Under the pieces are notes generated by a model. That model was not told where the DNA came from. It saw only the letters and a program-made list of their open reading frames with translations, and ran no database searches. From Altererythrobacter sp. XM-24bin4 (GTDB lineage Bacteria > Pseudomonadota > Alphaproteobacteria > Sphingomonadales > Sphingomonadaceae): a DNA stretch of 64,000 nt. Shown one piece after another: positions 698-25,212 of this stretch (its first letter is position 1; every line of letters begins with the position of its first letter). The translations under genes were made by a program, and so were the position numbers. The stretch spans positions 1,207,183 to 1,271,182 of the forward strand of contig QCWG01000001.1 in the NCBI GenBank assembly GCA_003149575.1. Direction: 5' to 3'.

Positions 698-1357
698 CTA
701 TTCCAAATCCAGACTGCTGATTTTCGCATCCAGATCGATCGGGATCTGTGAGAGCACTTCGACGCCGCTTTGTTTCTCATAAGCCTTATCGCCATGCTCG
801 ACGACAAGTTCGGCATGGCGGAGATCGCGCTGGCGCAGAAGCTCCGCAATTTCTTCGCGGTAAAGCGCGACCATGGCCGTCACGAAGCGATTGACGAGAT
901 CGTCCTCCTTCGTCTGGTCGACATTGAAGTCGGGCAGATGCTCGATCATCACATCGGCCGGAAAGAGAAACTCGTTCGTGACAAAGCGGTTTACGGTGAA
1001 CCAGGCACGCGGGATGCCTATGGTATCGATCGACAGCCCTACCAAATGCGTAACATGCGCTTTGCAATCTTCGCCCTGCGGCGGCCAGACCGTGGGCTCA
1101 AAACCCTTTGGCAGCTGAGTGCGGTGCAGGAACAGGTGAAAATGTCCGTGTTCGCCTTCATCTCGCGATCCCGGCGCGTGTACATGGTAGTACCAGCGCG
1201 ACTTGGTTTTGGCATCGCGCGCATCGCCTTTCGGGTAATGTGTCCAGAAGTTGCTCTCGCCACCCTCTGGTAACACGCGCAGCATCAGCGGGCGCTGTTC
1301 TTGCGCCATCTGCGTAACGGTTTCGATGACGGTGTAGGCGGCGTCCGTGGCGTTCAT
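698..1357 (-). CDS. Conserved protein of unknown function
   Basis: About 219 residues from the ATG at 1357; a longer frame runs to 1402 but would overlap the upstream terminator, so the inner start is preferred. No signal peptide or membrane segment is visible. The centre has a His-rich stretch HGHFHLFLHR and an aromatic WYYHVHAPGS segment, which could bind metal. The C-terminal third is helical and charged. I associate the HFHLF pattern with a conserved alphaproteobacterial domain of unknown function, but I cannot assign a role. It is convergent with tlyA and is separated from the small lipoprotein gene behind it by a terminator. Confidence 0.6.
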   Translation of the reverse strand: MNATDAAYTVIETVTQMAQEQRPLMLRVLPEGGESNFWTHYPKGDARDAKTKSRWYYHVHAPGSRDEGEHGHFHLFLHRTQLPKGFEPTVWPPQGEDCKAHVTHLVGLSIDTIGIPRAWFTVNRFVTNEFLFPADVMIEHLPDFNVDQTKEDDLVNRFVTAMVALYREEIAELLRQRDLRHAELVVEHGDKAYEKQSGVEVLSQIPIDLDAKISSLDLE

Positions 1358-1370
1358 ACTCGCTTGCCTA

Positions 1371-1411
1371 GAAAACGAAACGGCCGACGGCAACACAGTC
1401 ACCGTCGGCCG
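1371..1411 (-). terminator. Rho-independent terminator of the Cys-rich lipoprotein gene
   Basis: A perfect 10-bp stem (CGGCCGACGG at 1381-1390 with its complement at 1402-1411, 11-nt loop) is followed on the minus strand by TTTCGTTTTC. It lies 27 bases after the lipoprotein stop and just before the start of the next minus-strand gene, so the two genes are probably separate transcripts. Confidence 0.8.
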
Positions 1412-1437: not shown

Positions 1438-1647
1438 TTATTCAGCTGCTGCTTCTTCTTCAGCAGCGGCACAGCAACCTTCAGCTGCACAGCAGCCTTC
1501 TTCAGCAGCTGCACAGCAACCTTCAGCTGCAGCTTCTTCAACAGCTGCTTCTTCAGCAGGAGCTTCTTCAGCTGGAGCCGAACATGCAGCAGTAGCTACA
1601 GCGAGGCCGCCTGCAACTGCCAGCATCGATGCCAGATTCTTTCTCAT
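1438..1647 (-). CDS. Small Ala/Glu-rich lipoprotein-like protein with Cys-Cys repeats
   Basis: 69 residues starting at 1647 (ATG, preceded by an AAGGGGA ribosome site); longer upstream frames lack protein character. Residues 1-22 form a signal peptide (MRKNLASMLAVAGG...) ending in TAAC, a near-lipobox with Thr instead of Leu/Val at -3. The mature part is almost only Ala and Glu with three Gly-Cys-Cys motifs at about residues 43, 51 and 57. The DNA there is internally repetitive. The six paired cysteines on an acidic, probably disordered chain suggest a metal-binding or redox tether, but this is inference; no family is recognised. It has its own terminator and is divergent from tspO. Confidence 0.6.
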   Translation of the reverse strand: MRKNLASMLAVAGGLAVATAACSAPAEEAPAEEAAVEEAAAEGCCAAAEEGCCAAEGCCAAAEEEAAAE

Positions 1648-1912
1648 TACCAAATTCCCCTTGTGGGTTGGGCGCCCCAAATGACGACCCCACGCCGCTG
1701 TGCGCCCAATCGCACGACGCGGAAACAGGGAGCTTAGCAGAAGATTTCCTTTTCGCTCAAATTCTTTTTCCACTTCTTTCATGAGACACGCCGTTGAGGT
1801 TTTTTTGACCTTTTCTCTGTTTGAGACAGCATTTGGCGTGCAATTGCCCAAAGTGTATCGCGTGGCAGGACGCAAGATGGGCGATTCGCCCTACCTTTTG
1901 CCGGGAGATCAC

Positions 1913-2461
1913 ATGAACGTCATTGCCTCACGCAGCCAATTGCGCGCCAGCTTCTTTCGCTGGGCGCTTTTCACTGTGCCATTGATTGTTCTGTTGGGCT
2001 TTGTCGCTGGCCAGTTAGGCAGTCCGAATACCTTGTGGTTTCAAAGCCTCGTCAAGCCAGACATTTTTCCGCCACCCGCGGCTTTCGGTATCGTCTGGTC
2101 GATCCTTTATGTGATGATCGGTATCGCATTGGCGCTGGTTTGCAGCTCTTGGGGAGCACGCGGGCGCGGGGTCGCGATTGGAATTTTCGCAGTGCATTTC
2201 CTGTTCAATCTCGCGTGGACGCCGGTTTTCTTCGGAAATCAGAACATCGAAGGCGGGCTTATAGTCATCGCAATCGTGCTGCTGACGCTGCTGGCTGTCA
2301 TTGTTGCATTCTGGAAGGTGCGCAAATTGGCGGCCTTGCTGCTGCTGCCCTATCTCGCATGGGTTGGCTTTGCGACCTTGCTCAACTACGAATTCCTCGA
2401 AGCAAATCCTGACGGTGGGCAATCGATCCCGAGCAACGCAACCCAGCGCATCCAGTTGTAG
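1913..2461 (+). CDS. tspO: TspO/MBR family membrane protein
   Basis: 183 residues from the ATG at 1913, preceded by GGGAGA; an upstream in-frame ATG at 1877 is less likely because the first helix begins only after MNVIASRSQ. Five hydrophobic segments fit the five-helix TspO/translocator protein fold. Family marks seen: WFQSLVKPDIFPPP, FNLAWTPVFF in the middle and YLAWVGFATLLNYEFLEANP near the end. TspO proteins bind porphyrins and sterols and, in photosynthetic alphaproteobacteria, modulate pigment gene expression in response to oxygen. The last 15 residues are polar and outside the family core. It is followed closely by ubiK on the same strand. Confidence 0.9.
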   Translation: MNVIASRSQLRASFFRWALFTVPLIVLLGFVAGQLGSPNTLWFQSLVKPDIFPPPAAFGIVWSILYVMIGIALALVCSSWGARGRGVAIGIFAVHFLFNLAWTPVFFGNQNIEGGLIVIAIVLLTLLAVIVAFWKVRKLAALLLLPYLAWVGFATLLNYEFLEANPDGGQSIPSNATQRIQL

Positions 2462-23995: not shown

Positions 23996-24340
23996 ATGGC
24001 AAAGCTTTCTCTCTTTGAACGCCGCCGCCGCCGCGTGCGCACCGCGCTTCGCAGCCGTGCTGGTGGTAAGCCGCGCCTGTCCGTGCACCGCACCGGCAAG
24101 CATATCTACGCGCAGATCATCGATGATGCAGACGGCAAGACGCTTGCTGCCGCTTCGACGCTCGGTGCGAAGGCTTCAGGTGCCAATGTCGATGCCGCCA
24201 CAAAGGTTGGCAAGGACATTGCAGCTGCTGCCAAGAAGGCTGGCGTAACGACTGTCGTGTTCGATCGCGGCGGTTTCCTTTTCCACGGCCGCGTGAAAGC
24301 GTTGGCTGATGCCGCTCGCGAAGGCGGGCTGGAGTTCTGA
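23996..24340 (+). CDS. rplR: Ribosomal protein L18
   Basis: 114 residues; start fixed at 23996 by [20 protein letters not shown] and the GGGAAGAAGAAG ribosome site. L18 binds 5S rRNA with L5. Seen: [31 protein letters not shown], and [20 protein letters not shown]. The stop overlaps the first of two ATGs of rpsE. Confidence 0.97.
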
Positions 24341-24342
24341 TG

Positions 24343-25212
24343 ATGGCTGACGAAAAGAAAACACCAGAAGCCGAAACTGAAGCACCGAAGGTTGAAGAAA
24401 CCGCGGCTGCTGAAGAAACCAAGGTAGAAGCAGCGACGGAAGAAGCTGCTCCTGCTGAAGAAGCTGCTCCTGCTGAAGAAGCTGCTCCTGCTGAAGAAGC
24501 GGCTCCTGTTGAAGAAGCGGCTCCTGTTGAAGAAGCGGCTCCTGCTGAAGAAGCGGCTCCTGTTGCTGATGACCAGCGTCAAGGGCGCGGTCGCGGTCGT
24601 GGCGGCAACCGTGATGGCGGAAATCGTGGCCGTGGCGGCCGTGACAACCGTCGTGGTGGACGCCGCGAAGAAGAAGATGACGGCATCATTGAGAAGCTGG
24701 TTCACATCAACCGCGTGTCGAAAACAGTGAAGGGCGGTAAGCGCTTCGGTTTCGCAGCATTGGTTGTTGTGGGTGACGGATCGGGCCGCGTCGGCTTCGG
24801 CCACGGCAAGGCTCGCGAAGTTCCAGAGGCAATTTCGAAAGCTTCGGCTGCTGCGCGCAAGAAGATGGTTCGCGTTCCTTTGAAAGAAGGCCGCACGCTG
24901 CACCACGACGGCAAGGGCCGTTTCGGTGCCGGCAAGGTAACCGTTCGTACGGCGCCTCCGGGTACTGGCATCATCGCCGGTGGTCCGATGCGTGCTGTGT
25001 TCGAAAGCCTGGGCGTTGCAGACGTTGTGACCAAATCCGTCGGTACGTCGAACCCGTACAACATGATTCGCGCTACATTCGATGCGCTGACCAACCAGTC
25101 TTCGCCGAAGTCTGTGGCTCAGCGTCGTGGCAAGAAGGTTGCAGACCTGCTTGGCCGTGGTGGCGCTACCGAAGCGGAAGCAGAAGCTGACGCTGCTGCA
25201 GTTGTGGAGTAA
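24343..25212 (+). CDS. rpsE: Ribosomal protein S5 with long repeat-built N-terminal head
   Basis: 289 residues against 167 in E. coli; the ATG at 24340 gives one more Met. The S5 core begins near residue 113 ([20 protein letters not shown]) and continues normally ([17 protein letters not shown], then [19 protein letters not shown] and [14 protein letters not shown]). Before it lie an acidic A/E/P region with seven tandem six-residue units (EEAAPA or EEAAPV, residues 33-74), then an Arg/Gly-rich stretch ([20 protein letters not shown]). S5 acts in decoding fidelity and mRNA entry. The head is likely disordered; the RGG part could bind RNA. Confidence 0.96.
24439..24564 (+). repeat. Seven tandem 18-bp repeats inside rpsE
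   Basis: Seven in-frame copies of an 18-base unit like GAAGAAGCTGCTCCTGCT, differing only at a few third or second codon bases (GCT/GCG, GCT/GTT). They code for EEAAPA or EEAAPV. Copy number could change by slippage or unequal recombination without frameshift. Confidence 0.9.

Follow-up and report, generated by a model that had tools for sequence, protein, structure and literature searches.

Near the start of the 64-kb window (the whole stretch of DNA that was analysed), an open reading frame with an ATG start on the minus strand (1438..1647) encodes a cysteine-repeat, Sec/lipoprotein-like precursor of 69 aa, MRKNLASMLAVAGGLAVATAACSAPAEEAPAEEAAVEEAAAEGCCAAAEEGCCAAEGCCAAAEEEAAAE. It is followed on the same strand by the gene of a DUF6969 protein (698..1357), which had gone unmentioned in an earlier note on this DNA, and faces on its other side a divergent TspO/MBR gene on the plus strand (1913..2461), which was used as the synteny anchor. 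The earlier note had described a tiny lipoprotein-like protein with GCC repeats, and this description is borne out by the 69-aa frame with its six cysteines and three EGCC units. A scan for the EGCCA(A) DNA pattern located the three EGCCA units on the minus strand at 1466..1524 (1466-1482, 1484-1500 and 1508-1524); these were the sole matches in the 64-kb window and all lie inside the precursor gene, and 100 shuffles gave none. A home-made detector for open reading frames that combine a signal peptide with cysteine repeats fired once in the window, on the precursor frame.

The Sec signal peptide of the precursor was called by eye from the sequence and its conservation. It carries a lipobox-like T-A-A-C, similar in the orthologues, with Cys22 (1582..1584, minus strand) as the probable lipidation site, and is followed by 47 residues that by sequence count include 14 acidic residues, no basic residue and 6 cysteines. 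A T-A-A-C lipobox is atypical at position -3, and the precursor is a probable lipoprotein as judged from its sequence. No match over the cut-off was obtained against Pfam-A, where the only match was TENA_THI-4 below the cut-off (E=0.22); by the Pfam-A cut-off the precursor is not a member of a known metallothionein family or of any other Pfam family. It matched no NCBIfam family, and PADLOC reported nothing for the precursor or the DUF6969 protein. The same genome holds a second small lipoprotein-like gene rich in Ala, Glu and Asp (L007 from position 1295 onward, contig C1 near 755134), which is free of cysteine repeats.

The ribosome site and the gene's own terminator, both claimed in the earlier note, were recovered. 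A ribosome-site-like AAGGGGAA lies at 1655..1662 (minus strand) and is conserved in relatives, with AGGGGAA upstream of the cysteine-type orthologues, and a strong terminator-like hairpin (1381..1411, minus strand), consisting of a 14-bp stem followed by TTTCGTTTTC, separates the precursor gene from the DUF6969 gene, which starts about 24 bases beyond the hairpin on the same strand. A scan of 1300-2000 found no sigma-70-type promoter. The upstream alignment of orthologues contained the ribosome site, a GGGCGC block and a GATACAC block near TspO, and no recognisable metal-regulator site. The GATACAC block (about 1840-1870 in the window, between the precursor gene and TspO) is conserved in most cysteine-type genomes and is perhaps part of the TspO promoter. 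The precursor gene is strongly biased in its codons (Ala: GCT 16, GCA 10 and GCC plus GCG 1 of 27; GAA in 14 of 14), and its codon choice is nearer to that of EF-Tu than to that of most window genes. What points to expression is conservation and this codon choice, and the bias could also be caused by repeat expansion.

The earlier note had also linked the gene to the rpsE repeats by a 17-base word and had proposed a route for recombination. The word does exist, at 1547-1563 and as its reverse complement at 24538-24554, but the recombination route found no support, since shared low-complexity runs of Ala and Glu codons explain the 17-mer. The N-terminal repeat extension of rpsE (about 24340-24580 in the window) shares such codon runs with the precursor, and a similar C-terminal repeat extension with Ala/Glu codon runs was seen in a gene of the same genome that we take to be rpsP (L004, contig C1 near 1932470).

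The protein encoded downstream (219 aa) is a full-length member of the DUF6969 family (PF22308; E=6e-65, 219 bits, curated cut-off 27 bits), a family without a described function; a literature search found no paper mentioning DUF6969 or PF22308. Among 75 diverse sequences, H39, P41, D44, H57, H59, E68, G70, H71, H73, H103 and R176 (numbered from residue 2) are invariant. The invariant His, Asp and Glu residues suggest a metal site, so that DUF6969 is likely to be a metalloprotein, and it is probably cytoplasmic because its sequence has no obvious signal peptide. A profile search of the PDB found no relative, and its only match, 5cj4 (E=0.78), was taken as a chance match. An AlphaFold model from a three-row alignment (the window protein, L027 and a fragment from L252) reached a pLDDT of 56, which is too weak to interpret, and Foldseek with this weak model returned no match at E<=0.001. 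None of four DUF6969 proteins scanned against NCBIfam matched any model.

A protein search of 61 genomes with the precursor gave matches in 17, and the clear ones have DUF6969 or TlyA as a neighbour and, in loci that extend far enough, TspO, which was therefore chosen as the anchor; TspO itself is not thought to be part of the precursor/DUF6969 system. Four other matches of this search (L021, L024, L025 and L026) were rejected as members, being other lipoproteins and a coiled-coil-like protein. TspO is present in 108 of the 114 genomes of the genus, and a precursor orthologue was found at the TspO site in 93 of these 108 and was absent from 15, so that the lack of homologues which the earlier note had named as grounds for rejection does not apply. 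Three of the 15 (G004, G085 and G100) carry a DUF6969/cysteine-peptide pair elsewhere. One genome (G024) has two precursor copies, hence 94 genes in 93 genomes; in another (G013) the copy lies on a different contig from TspO, and L027, from the same contig as G111, was counted once.

The signal peptide of the orthologues is nearly constant and far better conserved than the tail, which is hypervariable. By tail, the 94 orthologues divide into 45 of a cysteine type (6-20 Cys), 19 rich in methionine and 30 low in both. Homologues with variable numbers of GCC units, as the earlier note had suggested looking for, do exist, with 0 to 8 units in the cysteine type. The 45 cysteine-type genes use 322 TGC and 193 TGT codons, and both codons occur in 42 of them, which indicates that what is maintained is the amino acid cysteine and not a DNA repeat. 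At five loci (L014 of G019, L018 of G023, L080, L089 and L105), Met-rich repeats (EEGDMMAEDGAMM, GEMAEGEM) replace the cysteine repeats at the same site; DUF6969 is retained in two of these genomes (G019 and G023) and missing in three.

At the TspO site, DUF6969 adjoins all 45 cysteine-type genes and two methionine-type genes (G019 and G023), and was found in none of the 46 remaining genomes with a precursor gene and in none of the 15 without one. At least one tail cysteine is present in 46 of the 47 genes with DUF6969 as opposed to none of the 47 genes (46 genomes) without it, the exception being G019, which has kept DUF6969 beside a tail with 10 Met and no Cys. A terminator-like hairpin lies in the gap between precursor and DUF6969 in 40 of the 47 DUF6969-linked orthologues, and also 3' of the gene in 41 of the 47 without DUF6969. 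A FastTree tree was built from TspO, BMFP and RecO (82 tips for 81 distinct genomes among the 108, with many weak inner nodes); on it, the genomes without DUF6969 at the site fall into 10 maximal clades, and Fitch parsimony gives 7 changes. The precursor gene is kept by genomes in two of the 10 clades, without tail cysteine in either, and in the other eight precursor and DUF6969 are both missing; such shared losses are weak evidence because one deletion can remove adjacent genes. The association of cysteine with DUF6969 inside the genus is partly phylogenetic. The pairing of precursor and DUF6969 is well supported. Two side observations concern the tails: the genomes G128 and G129 (L046 and L047) are at zero distance on the tree and yet differ strongly in their tails, and the 'EEVAEAACEAAEEVA' tail type turns up at scattered positions on the tree, a pattern that suggests that tails are exchanged or under diversifying selection.

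The signal peptide carries the stretch LASMLAVAGGL (residues 5-15; 1603..1635, minus strand), which we propose as a recognition leader. Signal-peptide hydrophobic cores are normally not conserved in sequence. The pattern [ML][LMI][ATM][VI].GGL, picked after inspection of the sequences, occurs in the signal peptide of 47 of the 47 DUF6969-linked orthologues as against 2 of the 47 genes without DUF6969. A wider form of the pattern is present at 37 of the 39 DUF6969 loci that lie elsewhere in the genus or in other genera, the remaining two reading GGM, and picks the precursor gene alone among the ATG-initiated frames of 60-180 aa in the window. The motif ML.VAGGL occurs both in signal peptides of the lipoprotein type and in plain Sec ones. 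When the search was reversed, with a profile of 20 DUF6969-linked peptides as the query, 27 of 296 genomes of the order matched; 26 of these have DUF6969, and the remaining match (G094) is a Met-tailed orthologue. Eight further cysteine-peptide matches in those genomes do not adjoin DUF6969. The one of the eight that was read (L248, in G132) is a leader-bearing cysteine peptide beside YHS and DUF4329-like proteins in a genome with a single DUF6969, which is consistent with an action of DUF6969 in trans.

Beyond the TspO site, DUF6969 was found in 56 of 114 genomes of the genus, 53 of 396 of the order, 90 of 385 of the class and 20 of 398 of the phylum, with 0 of 14 controls each time. Within the genus, the detector fired at all 16 loci where DUF6969 lies away from TspO (one locus, L164 in G096, with DUF6969 at a contig end, was left out of this count), and in other genera of the family at 20 of 23; at the three that it missed (L172, L184 and L188) a leader-type peptide is still there, with 2, 4 and 1 tail cysteines, respectively. 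At 33 of the 36 detector-positive loci the cysteine peptide immediately precedes DUF6969 on its strand, at a distance of at most 166 bases, and the coordinates of the open reading frames give the same upstream placement at the other three (L174, L187 and L189). The tail repeats at these loci differ widely and include NPCAANPCAA, GCAACAAGCAACGAAC, CAPAGCAAAGC, GCCAAAE and GCAACAA. One DUF6969-linked peptide is identical in genomes of two genera (L158 in G092 and L178 in G352), both of which were counted; contamination or recent transfer is possible.

In the wider Proteobacteria, a cysteine-repeat frame was detected at 22 of 57 DUF6969 loci with flanks of about 1.5-2 kb, mostly the best-scoring loci and not a random sample, and a convincing one at 7 of 20 loci fetched again with flanks of about 5 kb. 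The detector match at L260, an Arg/Ser-rich frame, was judged spurious and excluded from the count. DUF6969 matches were present in 167 plasmid records (Sinorhizobium, Burkholderia, Azospirillum and three others), and of three plasmid regions opened, one (Ciceribacter thiooxidans, L241) had a cysteine-repeat peptide upstream of DUF6969 and two had none; phage records gave no DUF6969 match. Given these fractions in the wider and plasmid loci, the pairing is not universal. Many of the frames detected at the wider loci belong to large proteins in which cysteine repeats are joined to a P460 or c-type cytochrome domain. Large exported proteins in which numerous NPC or CGA repeats precede cytochrome P460-like or c-type domains were noted near DUF6969 at L125, L193, L205, L224, L257, L261, L265, L269 and L272, and likewise at L226, L228, L230 and L231; Pfam confirmed those at L205 and L226 only. 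FGE-sulfatase-like neighbours occurred at 21 of 54 DUF6969 loci as a BLAST cluster, profile-confirmed in two. A second recurrent locus (L165-L170, L182 and L248) consists of a YHS-domain protein, an NPCAA- or ACAAS-repeat peptide and often DUF6969, followed by a DUF4329-type protein and/or ilvC.

The arrangement resembles that of the bufferins, described (PMC12452194) as MNIO-modified, Sec-exported, cysteine-rich RiPPs that buffer copper. Some of them are lipoproteins, one group has CxxxxC motifs, there are fusions with cytochrome c and FGE-sulfatase, and the signal peptide is likely to take part in recognition. The two systems share a Sec signal peptide on a small cysteine-rich precursor whose gene precedes that of the enzyme, some lipoprotein-like forms, CxxxxC-type spacing in one group, cytochrome c/FGE-sulfatase fusions and possible recognition through the signal peptide. 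They differ in that the partner here is DUF6969 and the precursor has no Pfam match over the cut-off. No match to MNIO (PF05114) or DUF2063 (PF09836) was found in the genome of the window, which is 99.83% complete, and none to MNIO in a genome of the same species (G075); MNIO matches were obtained in 69 of the 114 genomes of the genus. At 5 of 18 widely fetched loci (four of the five, from three genomes, had been fetched for having MNIO on the same contig), the DUF6969/cysteine-peptide pair lies about 2-16 kb from MNIO and DUF2063, as in bufferin clusters, and at the fifth (L329) MNIO, DUF2063, DoxX, the cysteine peptide and DUF6969 are consecutive. Among the six window neighbours scanned there was no known copper gene.

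The idea that cysteine-repeat peptides are RiPPs is not new, because NCBIfam names one cysteine-repeat group 'Cys-every-fifth RiPP peptide CefA' (NF038108) and three of the peptides pass its cut-off of 30 bits: the G134 orthologue (30.1), the second peptide of G132 together with its neighbours (30.6) and the NPCAA peptide of L170 (34.2). Cysteine-repeat tails are common to that group and the peptides described here, but the window precursor itself has no match to the model at E<=1. The model is of low complexity and low specificity here, matching 2 of 14 control genomes, one of them over the cut-off, and its genome count is a lower bound, as a G118 peptide passes the model and is absent from the genome listing. 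Literature searches found no paper on Cys-every-fifth, CefA RiPP or NF038108, and searches on cysteine-rich lipoproteins, P460, NPCAA and repeat RiPP precursors yielded, among the titles listed, none on the precursor/DUF6969 system. What appears to be new is the connection of cysteine-repeat peptides with DUF6969 and with a common leader.

As the parallels with bufferins are close and yet the genome shows no MNIO or DUF2063 match, we propose that the precursor is a bufferin-like, metal-buffering peptide matured by DUF6969, that is, a leader-guided substrate with DUF6969 in MNIO's place, and give this reading a probability of about 55%. The precursor would carry a Sec signal peptide, probably of the lipoprotein type, in which cytoplasmic DUF6969 would recognise the conserved ML.VAGGL stretch, and the cysteine repeats would be handled or modified before export, for example by oxidation, heterocycle formation or metal loading. 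The terminator-like hairpin between the genes suggests that the peptide is perhaps made in excess over DUF6969. After export the peptide would be anchored in the envelope, and there its thiols, modified or not, would bind soft metal ions, most likely copper. We infer physical recognition, any modification, lipidation, metal binding and the part of copper from the patterns described above. Metal binding by the precursor, which the earlier note had suggested, is plausible, and is strengthened by the MNIO/DUF2063 neighbourhoods and by the two Met-rich DUF6969-linked tails; copper is the likeliest metal by association.

An unlikely but serious alternative is that the peptide acts as a sponge of unmodified thiols, its Cys or Met repeats binding copper, zinc or mercury like a secreted metallothionein, and that DUF6969 does not modify it but serves as a metallochaperone or protects thiols. 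The 6-20 cysteines in acidic tails, the Met-rich replacements in G019 and G023 that retain DUF6969, and the invariant His, Asp and Glu residues of DUF6969 would all agree with this; conservation of the signal-peptide motif over otherwise different peptides, however, points to recognition before export, and the FGE-sulfatase-like neighbours and the one contiguous MNIO-containing cluster suggest cysteine chemistry. We consider it improbable that metals are irrelevant and that paired cysteines crosslink the lipoprotein chains into a periplasmic brush, as a disulfide-linked envelope tether, an idea of the earlier note, or as a redox buffer: CC pairs, variation in tail length and a lipoprotein-like signal peptide fit such a role, which leaves unexplained why the gene is tied to a single His-rich protein that has no evident signal peptide, as well as the tails with isolated cysteines (GCAAE, CEATE) and the Met replacements. 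Also improbable is a neutral low-complexity tail, in which only a lipidated acidic spacer is needed and cysteine content drifts by repeat slippage, since the hypervariable tails, the large group with Cys-free tails and the strong difference between the sister genomes G128 and G129, which would fit drift, have to be set against the 46/47 versus 0/47 association of cysteine with DUF6969, the mixture of TGC and TGT in 42 of 45 genes and the different cysteine repeats beside DUF6969 in other genera.

Maturation by DUF6969 may also be framed more broadly, as a tentative proposal to which we give somewhat less than even odds. DUF6969 would be a new family of metal-dependent enzymes that modify peptides and are unrelated to MNIO. 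These enzymes would recognise a motif in Sec and lipoprotein signal peptides and modify very different cysteine repeats (EGCC, NPCAA, GCAACAA, KCGAKCG and those fused to P460 or cytochrome domains), and their substrates would form a separate class of exported, RiPP-like, metal-buffering cysteine-repeat peptides in Proteobacteria.

By association, an uncharacterised family that occurs in 90 of the 385 sampled genomes of the class gains a function and a substrate that can be tested directly. At a single orthologous position, tails with Cys, with Met or without Cys occur in the presence or absence of DUF6969, and this series constitutes a natural experiment on the role of the partner. The system is probably a previously undescribed route to metal-binding cysteine peptides, and it suggests that bacteria can make exported cysteine-repeat peptides in a second way, which does not depend on MNIO.
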